Below, piece after piece: positions 2,860-10,238 of a stretch of DNA of 34,646 nt; position 1 is the stretch's first letter, and every line of letters starts with the position of its first letter. Under the pieces are notes generated by a model that was given only the letters and a program-made list of their open reading frames with translations, did not search any database and was not told the DNA's origin. Origin of the DNA: Bacteroidota bacterium (lineage in GTDB: Bacteria; Bacteroidota; Ignavibacteria; UBA10030); assembly GCA_016928255.1 (NCBI GenBank), contig JAFGLB010000115.1, positions 1-34,646 on the forward strand, written 5' to 3'. Both the position numbers and the translations under genes were made by a program.

Positions 2860-3462
2860 TTATTTCATCCGCTGCCGCAGTTCCTTTACAACATCTTCCA
2901 GCTTCATTCCCTGCTGCCGCAGAAGCACAAGAAGATGATATATAAGATCTGCCGATTCTTCTGCAACCCGTTTTTTTTCGCCTAGCACCGATGCAATAGC
3001 TACTTCCACCCCTTCTTCACCTACCTTTTGTGCAATACGCGGAGTACCTTCTTTGAAAAGTTTTGTCGTGTAGGATCCTTCAGGCATCTTTTGCCGGCGG
3101 TCGGCAATGATTTCTTCAAGCTTGCAAAACAAGCTTCCTGTATCGACAATTTCATCCTCGCCAAAACATGTAAATTGGTTTGTATGACAAACAGGGCCAT
3201 GAGGTATCGCCTTGACCAAAAGCGAATCGTCGTCGCAATCCTCTTTCATCGAAACATATTCAAGATAATGACCCGAAGTTTCGCCTTTTTGCCATAGACG
3301 TTTCTTTGTACGGCTGTAGAAAGTTACTTTTTTATCGGCAATGGTTTTTTCTACCGCTTCACGGTTCATGAATCCAACCATTAAAACCTGATTTGTTCGG
3401 GCATCCTGTATGACAGCAGGAACAAGCCCGTTCATTTTTTCAAAATTTAAATTTTCAATCAC
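2860..3462 (-). CDS. hisI: Bifunctional phosphoribosyl-AMP cyclohydrolase / phosphoribosyl-ATP pyrophosphatase HisIE
   Basis: The protein performs steps 2 and 3 of histidine synthesis, hydrolysing PR-ATP to PR-AMP and then opening the adenine ring to ProFAR. The 200 residues split into an N-terminal HisI domain (about 1-115), with [11 protein letters not shown] and the metal-binding Cys segment [12 protein letters not shown], and a C-terminal HisE domain (about 115-200), with EEGVEVAIA and [14 protein letters not shown], the MazG-like helical metal-binding acidic residues. It is the last gene of the operon and overlaps hisF by 4 bases. The fused form is common in enterobacteria and Bacteroidota. 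No terminator is visible after it; the convergent ACT gene ends 3 bases away. Confidence 0.97.
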
Positions 3463-4214
3463 ATTCGCACCGAAATATTGTTATTATGTAAGAATAATTT
3501 TAGTTCAGAAATTGATATTTTGTTGTAATGAAAAATACTTGCCGCCAATACAGCATCAGCTTTGCCCAATTGAATTGCATCCTTAACATGTTCAGGTTTA
3601 CCGGCTCCGCCGGATGCAACAAGCGGAATGGAGATACGTTCGGAAAGAGTGGACAGCAGTTCTATATCATAACCTGCGGTTGTGCCGTCACGATCCATAG
3701 ATGTTACCAGTAATTCACCTGCCCCGCGTTGAAAAACTTCGTTTGCCCAGGACAGTGCGTCCAACCCTGTCGATTCAGTCCCCGCCTTTGTCCATACTGT
3801 CCATGTATTTTTTGCCCGCTTTACATCTATCGCAACAACAACAGATTGCGAGCCGACACAGCTGCTTGCTTCATCTACAAATGAAGGCCGGGCAATTGCA
3901 GCCGAATTGACTGAGACTTTATCCGCACCGGCATCCAGAGCATTCTTGACATCATTTATTGAACTTATTCCGCCGCCGACAGTAAAGGGAATTTGAATTG
4001 CTGCCGCAACTCGTTCTACCATTTGTAAAAAAGTTTTTCTTCCTTCGAGTGTTGCGCTTATATCCAGAAATACCAATTCATCAGCACCTTCATCCGAATA
4101 CCGCGCCGCGAGCTCTACAGGATCGCCGGCATCGCGCAGCTGCAGAAAATTAGTGCCTTTTACTGTACGGCCGTCTTTTACATCAAGACACGGTATGATT
4201 CTCTTGGTCAGCAT
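3459..4214 (-). CDS. hisF: Imidazole glycerol phosphate synthase cyclase subunit HisF
   Basis: HisF is a TIM-barrel cyclase that uses ammonia delivered from HisH to convert PRFAR to imidazole glycerol phosphate and AICAR. It has 251 residues, the family size. The N-terminus [16 protein letters not shown] carries catalytic Asp11, and VVAIDVKR near residue 130 carries the second catalytic Asp. The phosphate-binding loops FTVGGGI and [12 protein letters not shown] are present. It overlaps hisI by 4 bases downstream and hisA by 7 bases upstream, consistent with translational coupling. Confidence 0.97.
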
Positions 4215-4936
4215 TCTTTATCGTTCATCGCAGCAAGTTCTTCAATCGATAATAGTCCTTCGTAAATGGCTTTACCCACGATAACTCCGTCAAGTTTGTA
4301 CTGCTTTAATGCCTGAATATCTGTAATTGCCGATATACCTCCCGAAGCAATGATCGACACTTGCGTAAAAGCGGATCTCAGATTCTTGAAGAATTCTATA
4401 TTGGCTCCCTCAAGCATTCCGTCCCGGGAAATATCCGTGCAAATAAATTCTTTTGCGCCTCTTCTTATCAGATCCAGTATAAATTTCATCGGCTCGAGAC
4501 GCGTATCCTCAAGCCAGCCGCTTATAGCCACGGAGCCGTTTTTTACATCCATACCGATGACGATGCGATCGGTGCCGAATTGCTGGACCCAGTATTCCAC
4601 CAATTCGGGAGATCTTGCCGCAATGCTGCCTATAACGGCACGCGATACTCCTATATCAATAAGCTGCCGAATCTCTTCCGTCGATCTGATGCCGCCGCCA
4701 ATCTCAACTTTTAATCCGGGTATGCCGCAGATGGAAGCAATCGATTTCCAGTTTACGACCTTTTTTTCTTTGGCTCCCTGTAAATCCACAACATGCAAAA
4801 ATCGGAAACCGGCTTTTGCAAACTGCCTGGCCACTTCTTCTGGAGATTCAGAATAAACGGTTTTTTGCCCGTAATCACCCTGGCGAAGCCTGACGCATTT
4901 ACCCTCATAAATATCTATCGCGGGAATAATCAGCAT
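4208..4936 (-). CDS. hisA: ProFAR isomerase HisA
   Basis: 1-(5-phosphoribosyl)-5-[(5-phosphoribosylamino)methylideneamino]imidazole-4-carboxamide isomerase, a TIM barrel homologous to HisF that performs the Amadori rearrangement ProFAR to PRFAR. The protein has 242 residues. [15 protein letters not shown] includes catalytic Asp8, VIGMDVKNG near residue 130 carries the second Asp, and the phosphate-binding loops [20 protein letters not shown] and IASGGIS are intact. It overlaps hisH by 7 bases and hisF by 7 bases. Confidence 0.97.
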
Positions 4937-5523
4937 AGCTCGACAAAATTTCTTAATAGTTGCAGACCCGTTGGTCCCGATTTTTCGGGATGAAATTGAA
5001 CACCGTAATAATTCTCATTTTTTAAAGCGGATGTAAACTGCACGCCATATTCCGTTGTGCCTATTGTCTCTGAAGTGAGGGGCACGTAATAAGAATGAAC
5101 AAAATAAAAATTTTCACCGTCTGCAATACACTTGAATAAAGGCATTTTGCTGTCATGGCGGACCTGATTCCATCCCATATGAGGGACTTTTAATCCTGTC
5201 TGTTCGTTTCCGAATCTTTTGCTTTCGCCTGCAAGCAGTCCGAGGCATTCTGTATTTCGTTCCGTTGTCCGTTCCAGAAGAAGCTGCATACCGAGACATA
5301 TTCCGAGAAACGGCACTCTGATTTGAATCAGCCAGTCTGTAAGGCCTGATTTAATCAATGCTTCCATCGCACTCCTCGCTTCGCCAACGCCTGGAAAAAT
5401 CAGTTTATCCGCTTTATCCAGTTCATGGTAATCACTAGAAATGAAATGACGGACATTAAGCCTGTTCAGTGCATTGCTCACTGAACGAATATTCCCTGCA
5501 CCGTAGTCTATTATACCAACCAT
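4930..5523 (-). CDS. hisH: Imidazole glycerol phosphate synthase glutaminase subunit HisH
   Basis: HisH is a class I glutamine amidotransferase that supplies ammonia to HisF. It has 197 residues starting MVGIIDYGAGNIRSV. The nucleophile is Cys76 in LGICLGMQLL, and the His178/Glu180 pair sits in VQFHPEKSG, so the catalytic triad is complete. The frame is open 31 codons further upstream into hisB, but the ATG at 5523 matches the family start and leaves a 13-base gap after the hisB stop. The ribosome-binding site is weak (AAGAAG), which suggests dependence on translation of hisB. Confidence 0.96.
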   Translation of the reverse strand: MVGIIDYGAGNIRSVSNALNRLNVRHFISSDYHELDKADKLIFPGVGEARSAMEALIKSGLTDWLIQIRVPFLGICLGMQLLLERTTERNTECLGLLAGESKRFGNEQTGLKVPHMGWNQVRHDSKMPLFKCIADGENFYFVHSYYVPLTSETIGTTEYGVQFTSALKNENYYGVQFHPEKSGPTGLQLLRNFVELC

Positions 5524-5536
5524 AAGAGAATCTTCT

Positions 5537-6628
5537 TTATAATACACCTTTTGTAGAAGGCAGTGTATCCGCATATAAATCATTTTTCGTAACTGCCTGA
5601 CGCAGAGCACGCGCAACAGCTTTAAATACCGCTTCTATTTTGTGATGATCATTTCTGCCGCTGACTTCAATATGAATATTCGCGCGCAAGCCGTCCGCTA
5701 AAGCACGGAAGAAATCTTCAGTCAATTCCGTCGGAAACTCGCCTACTTTCTCTCTTTCAAATGTAGCTTTAAATACACAGAACGGGCGCCCTCCCAAATC
5801 AAGAGCGACTTTGGCCAGAGATTCGTCCATAGGCAGAAGGAATCCATACCGTTCGATTCCGCGTTTATCTCCAAGCGCCTGCCTGATCGCATCGCCTAAA
5901 GCAAGTCCTGTATCCTCAACACTATGATGCTCGTCCACCTGAAGATCACCTTTTACACTTATATTCATGTCTATGCCGGAATGTTTGGCAAACAGAGTAA
6001 GCATGTGGTCAAAAAAACCGATACCTGAAGAAATTTTACAGCTGTCTATTCCGTCAAGAAAGATGTCAACCGAAATATCCGTTTCCATTGTTTTACGCCT
6101 GACAGCTGCAGACCTTGATTGACGAATAATTAAATTACATGCTTCAAGAAAACTTTTTGTTTTAAAATCAGCCTCCGTCGATGCATCAGATGTCAGACGA
6201 ACGGATTTGCAGCCAATATTCTTTGCCAACCGGACATCCGTCTCGCGGTCTCCGAGGACATAAGAACGGGAAAGATCGACTTGATTTATTTTCAGGAAAT
6301 CATCCACCAGGCCGGTTTTCGGCTTCCTGCAATTGCAGCCGTCTGCAGAACTGTGGGGACAGATGAATACACCGGCAAAATTTATTCCTTCTCCGTTAAG
6401 CAGGCTCATTATTTTTTTCTGTACAAGATCGTAAGATTGCCGTGGATAAGCCGGTGAACCGAGTTTATCCTGGTTTGATACCATAACCAGTTCGAATCCG
6501 CGGCTCTGCAGCAGACGGAGGCCCTGAATTACATTCGGGACAAACTCCAGTTTTTCCAGCGTATCTATCTGTTCATCGGGCGGCTCGATTATTATAGTAC
6601 CGTCCCTGTCAATAAATACAACTTTCAT
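5537..6628 (-). CDS. hisB: Bifunctional histidinol-phosphatase / imidazoleglycerol-phosphate dehydratase HisB
   Basis: A 363-residue two-domain fusion. Residues about 1-165 are a HAD-type histidinol-phosphatase: DRDGTIIIEP near the N-terminus gives the nucleophile Asp and the DxD pattern, VSNQD follows, a zinc-binding loop CPHSSADGCNCRKP sits near residue 110, and LGDRETD supplies the metal-binding acidics. Residues about 180-363 are IGP dehydratase, with the two manganese-binding histidine motifs (FFDHMLTLFAKHSG, DEHHSVEDTGLALG) and later SGRNDHHKIEA. It catalyses steps 6 and 8 of the pathway. It overlaps hisC by 4 bases (ATGA) with AAGGAG upstream. Many bacteria keep these as separate genes; the fusion is typical of enterobacteria and Bacteroidota. 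Confidence 0.97.
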   Translation of the reverse strand: MKVVFIDRDGTIIIEPPDEQIDTLEKLEFVPNVIQGLRLLQSRGFELVMVSNQDKLGSPAYPRQSYDLVQKKIMSLLNGEGINFAGVFICPHSSADGCNCRKPKTGLVDDFLKINQVDLSRSYVLGDRETDVRLAKNIGCKSVRLTSDASTEADFKTKSFLEACNLIIRQSRSAAVRRKTMETDISVDIFLDGIDSCKISSGIGFFDHMLTLFAKHSGIDMNISVKGDLQVDEHHSVEDTGLALGDAIRQALGDKRGIERYGFLLPMDESLAKVALDLGGRPFCVFKATFEREKVGEFPTELTEDFFRALADGLRANIHIEVSGRNDHHKIEAVFKAVARALRQAVTKNDLYADTLPSTKGVL

Positions 6629-7671
6629 TCATAGTACTCCTTCACAGTATTAATCAGCATTTCATTTTCGCGATGCGTGCCGACGGTAATTCTCAGGCAG
6701 TTCTCCAGCAGAGGTTCAGAACTTCGATTGCGCACTATGATTCCCTTGCCGGCCAATAATTTATAAAGAGCTCCAGCATCGGTGCAGCGGACAAGAATAA
6801 AGTTCGCATCTGAATGAAAAACTTCTTTTACACATAAAAGCTTATTCAATTCGCCGGAAAGCCACTCACGTTCCTGTATTATAGCGTCAACGGTCTGCCT
6901 GACTTCGACTCCTTTACTCAATGCCTGCAAAGTCATACGGCTTGTCAATGCGCTGATGTTGTAAGGCGATTTTACTTTCATTAAATAAGATATAATAACA
7001 GGGTCTGCAATGCAGTACCCGAATCGCACTCCCGCCAGTCCCCATGCTTTTGAAAGTGTCCTTAACACCACCAAATTTGGATAGTCAAGAACCATTTTTA
7101 CCAGGGATTCCGTTTTAGCAAAATCGATATAAGCTTCATCAACAATGACAATGGAATTTAGATCGCACAATGCCAGGATATCTTCGACTCGCAGCAGATT
7201 TCCGGTTGGATTATTCGGCGAGCAGCAAAAAATGAGCTTTGTACTTGCATCAACTTTCCGCTTCACTTCCCCTGTATTGATCTGAAAATCTTCAGTCAGC
7301 AGGCAGGAACGCACATCAACATCCTGGATAGATGCCGCAACGCGGTACATTCCGTATGTCGGCTCCAGCAAAACAATGGAATCCCATTTGGGTTCGCAGA
7401 ATACTCGGACTATCAAATCTATGACTTCGTCTGAACCGACGCCGATAAAGACATTTTCAAGTGCAACATCATTCATCGCCGCCAGTATAGTGCGGACTTC
7501 TCTTTGATACGGATCGGGATAACGGTTTAAAGTAAGATTTTCGGCTGTAACAACACTGCCGAAAGAATTCTCGTTTGCATCCAGCAAAACACCTGTCAGA
7601 TAATCCTGCCTTGCACTCCTGTATGGTTTTAATGCACGTATATTTTCGCGTACCAGCGATTCAATATTCAT
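6625..7671 (-). CDS. hisC: Histidinol-phosphate aminotransferase HisC
   Basis: A PLP-dependent fold-type I aminotransferase converting imidazole-acetol phosphate and glutamate to histidinol phosphate. It has 348 residues. It shows DANENSFGS and NRYPDPYQ at the N-terminus, CSPNNPTGN, VDEAYIDF, and the lysine motif RTLSKAWGLAGVRFG with PLP Lys near residue 207. C-terminal FILVRC and a GIIVRNR segment bind the substrate phosphate. It lies 38 bases after hisD and overlaps hisB. The ribosome-binding site is weak, and the 38-base gap is the largest within the operon downstream of hisG. Confidence 0.96.
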   Translation of the reverse strand: MNIESLVRENIRALKPYRSARQDYLTGVLLDANENSFGSVVTAENLTLNRYPDPYQREVRTILAAMNDVALENVFIGVGSDEVIDLIVRVFCEPKWDSIVLLEPTYGMYRVAASIQDVDVRSCLLTEDFQINTGEVKRKVDASTKLIFCCSPNNPTGNLLRVEDILALCDLNSIVIVDEAYIDFAKTESLVKMVLDYPNLVVLRTLSKAWGLAGVRFGYCIADPVIISYLMKVKSPYNISALTSRMTLQALSKGVEVRQTVDAIIQEREWLSGELNKLLCVKEVFHSDANFILVRCTDAGALYKLLAGKGIIVRNRSSEPLLENCLRITVGTHRENEMLINTVKEYYE

Positions 7672-7709
7672 AGAAAACTTGCTCTTATTTATTGGTTGCG
7701 TTACAGTAT

Positions 7710-9002
7710 TTATTTGGATGAAAGCCGGGAAGTAACTGCTCTGGCATGTGCCTGCAGTCCTTCTGTTTCGGCAAATGCAGTCAGCACCGGTGCGAGCACC
7801 GCAAGGCCTGCTTTGTCAATTAATTGAAACGTAATATATTTCTGGTAACTATCAAGCGAAACACCTCCTGTAAAACGAGCCGCACCGTTTGTCGGCAATG
7901 TATGATTCGTCCCTGAAGCATAATCACCTGCTGTAACAGGCGCAAAAGGTCCGATAAAAACAGAGCCTGCGCTGGTAACTGATTGTGCAAGCCGTTCGGC
8001 GTTATGAGTATTAATAATCAGATGTTCCGGTGCATAATCATTTGAAAACCGGACAGCTGATTCCAATGAATCGGCAATGACAATAAAACTTCTTTCCAGC
8101 GACGCAGATATGCAATTGTTGCGAGGAAATTCCCCGGCACGAGAAGGTAATATATGCATTATTTCATCGGCCAGTTTTTTACTGACAGTGACAAGCACAG
8201 CCTGTGCATCTGCATCATGTTCGCATTGTGAAATTAAATCGTATGCAACAACATCAGGATCGGCTGATTCATCCGCGATGACAAGAACTTCGGACGGTCC
8301 AGCCAGTAAATCAATTTGCGCTCCGCCGGGATCTGCCGATACAAACTGCTTTGCAGCAGTTACAAACCTGTTGCCGGGCCCGAATATTTTATCCACTTTT
8401 GGGATTGTCTCTGTTCCGTATGCCATCGCCGCAACAGCCTGCGCACCACCGACTTTATAAATTTCATCTATACCAACAATTGATGCCGCCGCTAAAACAA
8501 AATCATTTATTGAATTGTCCTTTTTCGGAGGCGAACAAAGAACTATACGTTTGCATCCTGCAATTTTCGCAGGAATGCCAAGCATTAATACCGTAGAAGG
8601 CAGCGGTGCGGAACCCGCAGGTATATACAAACCTACATTTTCTATCGGCCGCGGCTCGCGCCAGCATGTGACTCCCTTCATCGTTTCGATTTTCTGTGAA
8701 TTGCATTTCTGCGATTCATGAAATTTTCTGATATTACCGGCCGCCGCCGCGGCTGCATCAAGAAATTCAGGTGAAACCGATCTCTTAGCCGATTCGAATT
8801 CTTCAGCCGATACCCGAAGTGTCCTTATATTTGCTTTGTCAAACTTAAGGCTGTATTCATATACCGCGGCATCGCCGCGCTGCTTTATATCAGAACAAAG
8901 TTGTTTTACGGCCGCTTCGGTCTCGTTTTGAAATTGACTGCTGCGCTGCAAAAGAGCAAAACGATCCTGCTCTGTCAGTTTATTTTCGACATATTTTTTC
9001 AT
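7710..9002 (-). CDS. hisD: Histidinol dehydrogenase HisD
   Basis: A zinc enzyme that oxidises histidinol to histidine with two NAD+. The 430 residues match the family length. Conserved features are YIPAGSAPLPSTVLMLGIPA, the NAD-region segment VGGAQAVAAMAYGT, IFGPGNRFV, DLLAGPSEVLV, the zinc/active-site motif SQCEHDADAQA, DYAPEHLI (catalytic Glu-His), and GDYASGTNHTLPT. The start ATG 9002 overlaps the hisG stop (ATGA). Confidence 0.97.
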   Translation of the reverse strand: MKKYVENKLTEQDRFALLQRSSQFQNETEAAVKQLCSDIKQRGDAAVYEYSLKFDKANIRTLRVSAEEFESAKRSVSPEFLDAAAAAAGNIRKFHESQKCNSQKIETMKGVTCWREPRPIENVGLYIPAGSAPLPSTVLMLGIPAKIAGCKRIVLCSPPKKDNSINDFVLAAASIVGIDEIYKVGGAQAVAAMAYGTETIPKVDKIFGPGNRFVTAAKQFVSADPGGAQIDLLAGPSEVLVIADESADPDVVAYDLISQCEHDADAQAVLVTVSKKLADEIMHILPSRAGEFPRNNCISASLERSFIVIADSLESAVRFSNDYAPEHLIINTHNAERLAQSVTSAGSVFIGPFAPVTAGDYASGTNHTLPTNGAARFTGGVSLDSYQKYITFQLIDKAGLAVLAPVLTAFAETEGLQAHARAVTSRLSSK

Positions 9003-9874
9003 CTTATAATTATTTCAATAGGCACAACAATTATATCGCTGGCACCGGCCTCTTTAAGCTTTTCCATAACATCCCAGAATATATCTTCAGCCACGACCGT
9101 GTGGATGGCCACCATACCGGTTTGTGCAAGAGGCACTACAGTCGGACTTTTCAAGCTCGGTATCAGCCGTTTCAATTTCTGGACTGAGTTTGCAGGCGCA
9201 TTCATCATCAAATATCTTTTTCCGCCCGCTTCCTGAGAACCGCGCACGCGAATCATTAATCTCTCGATCACTTTTCTTTTGTTTTTGTCGTGCATAACAT
9301 CCGGATTGGCAACAAGCACGGCTTGAGATTCCATTACCATGCATAATGTCCGCAGGCCGTTCATTTTGGCCGTTGTTCCGGTAGACACGATATCGCATAT
9401 CACATCCGCAACATTTAGACTCGGCGCCAATTCAACCGAACCGCTGAGCTTTACAATTTCAGCTTTGATCCTGTTAGCATTCAAAAAGGATTTAAGAATG
9501 ACCGGATAAGTTGTGCCTATACGCAGTCCTTTCAGATCCTTAATTTTTCGTATTTGTGATTTAAGAGGCACGCTGATCATCAGCCTGCATCCGCCGAATC
9601 CAAGCATTGCCAGTCTATTTACTTTTGCTCTTCTTTCCTGAAGGATATTTTCTCCGATTATGCCCAGGTCGGCAACGCCATCCTGCACATATTCCGGAAT
9701 ATCGTCATCTCTGATTGCCAGAACATCCAGATCAAAATTACTGCATGGCGAGTACAGGCTTTGTTTCTGAAATTCAAAATTCAGTCCGCACGCGCGCAGA
9801 AGTCCCACTGAATCTTCCGTAAGGCGTCCATTTCTCTGTATTGCTATTTTCATCCGTCCATTCGTTGCGAGCAT
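8999..9874 (-). CDS. hisG: ATP phosphoribosyltransferase HisG (long form)
   Basis: HisG catalyses the committed step, ATP + PRPP to PR-ATP, and is normally feedback-inhibited by histidine. The 291 residues include the C-terminal regulatory ACT-like domain (about 215-291, LMMNAPANSVQKL through DIIVVPIEI), so it is the long form that needs no HisZ. Catalytic-domain signatures are KIAIQRNGRL, GVADLGIIGENIL, RIGTTYPVI and the PRPP loop DIVSTGTTAKMNGL. ATG 9874 is favoured because AGGA lies about 8 bases upstream. ATG 9853 (MKIAIQRNGRL) is an alternative and would also match the family. A palindrome sits directly against the start codon. Confidence 0.96.
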   Translation of the reverse strand: MLATNGRMKIAIQRNGRLTEDSVGLLRACGLNFEFQKQSLYSPCSNFDLDVLAIRDDDIPEYVQDGVADLGIIGENILQERRAKVNRLAMLGFGGCRLMISVPLKSQIRKIKDLKGLRIGTTYPVILKSFLNANRIKAEIVKLSGSVELAPSLNVADVICDIVSTGTTAKMNGLRTLCMVMESQAVLVANPDVMHDKNKRKVIERLMIRVRGSQEAGGKRYLMMNAPANSVQKLKRLIPSLKSPTVVPLAQTGMVAIHTVVAEDIFWDVMEKLKEAGASDIIVVPIEIIIR

Positions 9875-9892
9875 ACTTTATCCTAATAAAGT
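9875..9892 (-). promoter_or_regulatory. Palindromic candidate operator at the hisG start
   Basis: ACTTTA-N6-TAAAGT, a perfect 6-bp dyad, abuts the hisG start codon; the AGGA ribosome-binding site is in its centre. The same layout, CTTTA-N6-TAAAG followed by TATG, occurs at the start of the TrpR-family gene upstream. I infer a binding site for that regulator; an RNA hairpin presenting the ribosome-binding site in its loop is the alternative. Confidence 0.6.
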
Positions 9893-9909
9893 GTTAATGG
9901 CAAAAAAAA

Positions 9910-10194
9910 TTATTTTGTAGTCCGTTTAAGCATCATAGCATAGCCGCCCTTGCCTCTTTTAAGCCAGCGTCCCACGCGGGCGATAGTGCGAGTGCTGAGC
10001 CCTGTTTCTTCTTCTATTTGTGTATAAGGAATTCCGTTCGCCAGCATCCGGGCCGCTTTCCAGCGCTTGACAAATTCCTTGATCTCGTATTCGGTTAGAA
10101 GATCGCGGAAGAAACGCCGGCATTCATCCAGCGATTCAAGTCTAAGAATCGCAGTGTAAAGATCGTCTATTTCTCTTGTGCTTGGTTTTTTCAT
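9910..10194 (-). CDS. YerC/HisR-like TrpR-family transcriptional regulator
   Basis: A 94-residue all-helical protein of the YerC/YecD subgroup of the TrpR family. The dimerisation helices run about 8-50 (LYTAILRLESLDECRRFFRDL, then EIKEFVKRWKAARML). The helix-turn-helix follows: IPYTQIEEETGLSTRTIARV, ending in WLKRGKGGY, the typical subgroup ending. TrpR itself binds tryptophan as corepressor. YerC-type members next to his genes have been proposed as histidine regulators (HisR); the ligand is not visible in sequence. It is the first gene of the his operon, 35 bases before hisG. Palindromes at its own start and at hisG support autoregulation and control of the operon. Confidence 0.9.
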   Translation of the reverse strand: MKKPSTREIDDLYTAILRLESLDECRRFFRDLLTEYEIKEFVKRWKAARMLANGIPYTQIEEETGLSTRTIARVGRWLKRGKGGYAMMLKRTTK

Positions 10195-10195
10195 A

Positions 10196-10211
10196 CTTTA
10201 CTCAAATAAAG
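10196..10211 (-). promoter_or_regulatory. Palindromic candidate operator at the yerC-like gene start
   Basis: CTTTA-N6-TAAAG lies one base before the start codon and overlaps the last two bases of the -10 box and the expected transcription start. On the coding strand the 12 bases leading into the ATG are TGAGTAAAGTATG-like, closely matching the hisG site. This position is ideal for repression by blocking RNA polymerase. Confidence 0.62.
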
Positions 10212-10238
10212 AATAGCAAAAAATTAATTAAGTGTCAA
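10210..10238 (-). promoter_or_regulatory. Promoter of the his operon
   Basis: Reading on the minus strand, TTGACA (10238-10233) and TATTCT (10215-10210) are separated by exactly 17 bases. The -35 box is a perfect match and the -10 box matches 4 of 6. The expected start near 10203 leaves a leader of only about 9 bases before ATG 10194. Confidence 0.7.

Follow-up and report, generated by a model that had tools for sequence, protein, structure and literature searches.

A HisR-family gene, two predicted operators and a conserved T-tract in the histidine operon of an Ignavibacteria bacterium

The hisR-his locus

The window, that is, the whole 34,646-nt stretch of DNA from a Bacteroidota bacterium of the class Ignavibacteria that was analysed here, carries on its minus strand a gene for a 94-residue TrpR-family protein, followed by hisG and the remaining his genes (Table 1). 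The his genes after hisD were named by reading their translations, without a profile search. A gene on the plus strand (2464–2856) that reads as an ACT-domain-like protein is convergent to hisIE.

Table 1. Features of the hisR-his locus in window coordinates.
Feature	Position	Strand	Basis or remark
hisR promoter -35, TTGACA	10233..10238	-	cTTGACA or cTTGCAT kept in relatives
hisR promoter -10, TATTCT, overlapping O1	10210..10215	-	TATACT in most relatives
O1, predicted HisR operator TCTTTA-N6-TAAAGT, covering the hisR promoter and predicted transcription start	10195..10212	-	
hisR (yerC-like, TrpR family), 94 aa	9910..10194	-	TIGR02531 and PF01371
T8 tract, ending 9 bp upstream of O2	9902..9909	-	
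O2, predicted HisR operator ACTTTA-N6-TAAAGT, abutting the hisG ATG	9875..9892	-	
hisG, long form, 291 aa, with HisG_C domain	8999..9874	-	PF01634, PF08029, TIGR00070
Rest of the his operon, hisD to hisIE	2860..9002	-	ORFs
hisD	7710..9002	-	Pfam/NCBIfam
hisC	6625..7671	-	named from translation
hisB, HAD and IGPD fusion	5537..6628	-	named from translation
hisH	4930..5616	-	named from translation
hisA	4208..4936	-	named from translation
hisF	3459..4214	-	named from translation
hisIE	2860..3462	-	named from translation

The 94-residue protein is a member of the HisR (YerC/YecD) family. Profile searches matched it to TIGR02531 (YerC/YecD; 85.6 bits with a cut-off of 42.2, E-value 2.4e-24) and to the TrpR family PF01371 (78.3 with a cut-off of 27, E-value 4.8e-22), and it matches the solved TrpR-like structures 3kor, 3frw and 3g1c in the PDB. 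The family was named HisR by Ashniev et al. (2022, PMC9413887). Alignment by eye indicated that the DNA-contacting residues Thr81 and Arg84 (TrpR numbering) are retained and that Ala80 is replaced by Arg, or by Thr in the f3 clade. The recognition helix reads STRTIAR, compared with STATISR in Firmicutes HisR.

On the minus strand, the dyad CTTTATTTGAGTAAAG (10211–10196) is followed by T and the hisR ATG, and the dyad ACTTTATTAGGATAAAGT (9892–9875), whose centre is a Shine-Dalgarno-like AGGA, is followed directly by the hisG ATG. These twin dyads had been pointed out in an earlier note on this DNA, and their coordinates are confirmed; we designate them O1 and O2. Their shared core, CTTTA-N6-TAAAG, has 2 exact matches in the window (expected number, 0.05), and none of 100 dinucleotide shuffles of the window contained two. 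The genome as a whole has exact matches at 6 places, including the hisR and hisG dyads, and none of the remaining 4 found by the genome-wide search is at a his gene start. The hisR promoter consists of the 2 hexamers of Table 1 separated by a 17-bp spacer, and its -10 box shares 2 bp with the O1 dyad, an overlap that the earlier note had also described. The hisR promoter is the only good one, and O1 overlaps both its -10 box and its predicted transcription start. The T8 tract upstream of O2 was absent from that note.

Conservation of the dyads and the T-tract

The protein is encoded in 27 of the 61 genomes searched for HisR (own genome included), and in 26 of the 27 the gene adjoins hisG; the 27th (L024) retains a hisG stub only. 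Seven family members are without hisR, and all 7 lack hisG too. Class-wide, 30 of 391 genomes have a protein above the family cut-off, and in the 3 HisR genomes outside the order the gene again adjoins hisG. The earlier note had proposed that CTTTA-N6-TAAAG be looked for upstream of yerC-like genes and hisG in relatives, and it is conserved at both. In all 26 scored genomes, O1 matches 9 or more of 12 positions (mostly 11–12), and it overlies a TTGACA/TTGCAT-N17-TATACT promoter in the relatives. O2 scores 10–12 of 12 in 24 of the 26, across a deep clade, and is lost in L011 and L012, which are sisters on the hisG tree. The dyad is retained though displaced from the ATG in 6 loci (L016, L018, L020, L022, L023 and L046), and a general start-codon context was rejected as an explanation of the dyads on the ground of such shifts. 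Among hisG loci without an adjacent hisR, no dyad of at least 11 of 12 was found, with one exception (L137) that begins at a contig edge.

In 27 of 30 loci, O2 is preceded by a run of T6–T9 that ends 8–10 bp before the dyad. Conservation reaches 1.2–2.0 bits per column at -15 to -10, compared with approximately 0.1–0.4 at -9 to -5; the flanks of the tract and the spacer are poorly conserved, and the distance from the hisR stop to the tract varies from 0 to 15 bp. The distance from the tract to O2 is held where O2 moves off the ATG (L016, L022/L023). In background samples of 400 kb from each of two relatives, a run of 8 or more Ts between -45 and -19 preceded 1 of 303 genes in one and 1 of 280 in the other, which led us to reject a general start-codon context for the tract as well, and in each sample the combination of a T-run and a dyad match was hisG itself. 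Outside the HisR clade, the combination occurred at about the control rate (395 Bacteroidota genomes). The tract is degraded in L162, missing in L018/L020 though O2 is kept, and missing in L011/L012 together with O2, a joint loss that maps to one event on the tree. The T-tract is therefore not essential to O2, as L018/L020 demonstrate, and its co-loss with O2 is weak evidence because the tract losses represent few events on the hisG tree. An intrinsic terminator or attenuator at the tract was rejected: no hairpin of -8 kcal/mol or lower precedes it in any of 22 loci, compared with 21% of coding controls, and there was no notable Rfam match.

Several loci depart from this arrangement. In L007, the right half of O1 and the start codon lie in a 23-bp tandem duplication at the hisR start. 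In L024 (genome G008), the his operon has apparently been deleted from about hisG codon 17 to an ACT-domain-like gene, a relative of the one in the window; hisR, a weak O1, a T8 tract and O2 remain. O1, T8 and O2 are all present in L046, a Blastocatellia contig (JADGNW010000080.1) labelled Acidobacteriota that clusters with the window's order in the hisG tree, which points to horizontal transfer or mis-binning. The hisR gene also adjoins hisG, without an ACTTTA dyad, in 7 Acidobacteriota loci (L042, L043, L045, L048, L050, L061 and L066), a Peregrinibacterium (L047) and a deltaproteobacterium (L052). Several of these loci have another candidate operator, TGTTTTA-gTGTGt-TAAAACg, and there the recognition helix differs (STATITR, YR.I). 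With regard to further regulon members, none of the extra sites found in relatives (G012, genus g9) is at a gene recognisable as a his gene. In two g9 genomes, a 325-aa gene of unassigned function is closely preceded by CACTTTA-N6-TAAAG (L134 in G013:C82 and L130 in G028:C108), a possible extra site.

Predicted action of HisR at O1 and O2

The motif of both dyads is that of the HisR operator of most Firmicutes, Actinobacteria and Synergistetes, cacTTTAnnnnnnTAAAgtg (cacTTTA-N6-TAAAgtg; Ashniev et al. 2022, PMC9413887). Because the gene belongs to TIGR02531 and the motif is that of the published HisR operator, the interpretation in the earlier note, in which a YerC/HisR-type repressor regulates its own gene and has another site at hisG, is supported, and the conserved dyads and their absence from hisG loci lacking hisR agree with it. 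Judged by these comparisons, the dyads are very probably HisR operators, although the recognition helix of the protein departs from that of Firmicutes HisR. The HisR of the window would bind O1 and O2 with histidine as the signal; histidine-dependent DNA binding in vitro is described by Ashniev et al. for the Ruminococcus gnavus HisR only (PMC9413887).

The alternative that the dyads act as RNA hairpins hiding or exposing a ribosome-binding site is hardly credible; the earlier note had already thought it less likely for the first site. Most O2 copies could form a 7-bp stem with a Shine-Dalgarno-like loop (-2.6 to -4.5 kcal/mol); however, the stems are weak overall (-1.7 to -4.5 kcal/mol) and absent in L009 and L027, a T-to-C change disrupts the outer pair in several loci, the transcript at O1 would begin within the dyad, no Rfam element was found, and the dyad exactly matches the DNA operator of the adjoining regulator. 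Looping of the 320-bp DNA between HisR dimers on O1 and O2 is also very unlikely: the 2 operators are approximately 30 turns apart, but the spacing ranges from 320 to 374 bp with little helical phasing (R 0.33), and we know of no TrpR-family dimers that loop DNA.

Since O1 covers the -10 box and the predicted start, HisR bound there should block initiation by established repressor logic, so that histidine-bound HisR on O1 would repress initiation of hisR-hisGDCBHAF(IE). HisR would also occupy O2, between hisR and hisG, and it is likely that the 2 sites form an operator pair in which O2 acts within the operon. In the window, O2 overlaps a promoter match (TTGCCA-17-TAAAGT, 9 of 12), and hisG might have an internal promoter of its own, with TTGNNN at the end of the T-tract as the -35, a spacer of 16–17 bp and TAAAGT as the -10, for which O2 would be the operator. 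This spacing is kept in the relatives, most of which have the TTG, but -35 positions 4–6 are unconserved, unlike the T-tract. Moreover, the ATG directly follows TAAAGT in most loci, and transcripts would therefore begin within hisG. Codons 2–7 of hisG vary synonymously, which identifies the first ATG as the coding start, and most relatives have no ATG at codon 8. We therefore regard an internal promoter as improbable. Being without a usable promoter in most relatives, O2 would most likely serve as a roadblock for polymerase coming from the hisR promoter, and its action would place the his genes under tighter repression than hisR. The site that the earlier note placed at hisG is very probably a HisR operator, and it probably affects elongation instead of a promoter.

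The RNA 3′ end of a polymerase halted at a protein roadblock lies very roughly 14–18 bp upstream of the protein edge, a distance that is itself uncertain. At O2, the 3′ end would therefore be at or near the T-tract, with a register uncertain by several bp. Histidine-bound HisR would halt the polymerase with the RNA 3′ end in or next to the U8 tract, and the T-tract, 8–10 bp upstream of O2, would weaken the RNA–DNA hybrid in the blocked polymerase, which would then backtrack or release. We consider the chances evenly balanced that a roadblock at O2 is assisted by the T-tract in this manner. That O2 and the tract together constitute a ligand-gated, hairpin-free terminator is a more tentative proposal, falling somewhat short of an even chance.

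The tract might instead be a U8 enhancer of hisG translation recognised by the ribosome or S1, without a role for HisR and with the dyads alone as HisR sites. S1 can bind U-rich leaders, the tract is 26–39 nt upstream of the ATG, and the O2 loop often contains a Shine-Dalgarno-like AGGA, AAGG or GAG. By contrast, a tract–dyad spacing of 8–9 bp is kept while the ATG recedes in L016 and L022/L023 (few independent events), and comparable tracts are nearly absent from other genes. We regard an enhancer as unlikely.

Relation to known systems

The fold family, a corepressor-dependent operator and autoregulation are common to this system and E. coli TrpR. The latter has the operator TGTAcTnGTnnACnAgTACA, tryptophan as its ligand and a trpR gene apart from the trp operon; a regulator of this type, with that operator and a trp target, was rejected, since the window has ACTTTA-N6-TAAAGT at his genes.

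The HisR switch is a known type of regulation, and the protein family, operator consensus, his operon target and autoregulation are all shared with the HisR (YerC) regulons of Ashniev et al. (2022, PMC9413887). The locus described here differs from those regulons in (i) an extra operator at the start of hisG, within the hisR-his operon, and (ii) the conserved T-tract. In Pyramidobacter and Elusimicrobium, a single site is named for the hisR-his operon, and the HisR site of Proteobacteria is immediately upstream of hisR (PMC9413887); as far as the account in that paper goes, a similar second operator may also exist in Firmicutes. Its text does not mention Bacteroidetes, such a regulator is likewise missing from a paper on his genes across the Bacteroidota superphylum, and no earlier report of a HisR switch in Ignavibacteria was found in the literature searched. 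The new elements are thus the phylum (Bacteroidota, Ignavibacteria), to which the HisR histidine switch is extended, the two-operator hisR-his operon and the conserved T-tract by O2. The clade also allows the regulator, the promoter and both operators to be compared side by side.

Bacterial repressor roadblocks include those of LacI, PurR, GalR, CcpA and CodY, in which a repressor downstream of the start site blocks the elongating polymerase (PMC10310618). The hisR-his operon fits them in anatomy alone, and the descriptions of these roadblocks that were consulted include no conserved T-tract upstream of the operator (PMC10310618). A limited literature search found no bacterial precedent for a T-tract and a repressor roadblock together, and the locus, being compact, is a testable candidate for such a roadblock aided by a T-tract encoded in the DNA.

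We know of no ligand control of the yeast Pol I terminator, another related arrangement. In that eukaryotic system, a T-rich element and the Reb1 roadblock jointly backtrack the polymerase, and an RNA hairpin is also required (PMC12366685), whereas no hairpin is found here. The terminator resembles the present locus in that a T-rich element immediately precedes a protein roadblock, Reb1/Nsi1 (PMC12366685). If the proposed action of the T-tract and O2 is true, the hisR-his operon would contain a bacterial counterpart of this T-rich element and Reb1/Nsi1 roadblock.
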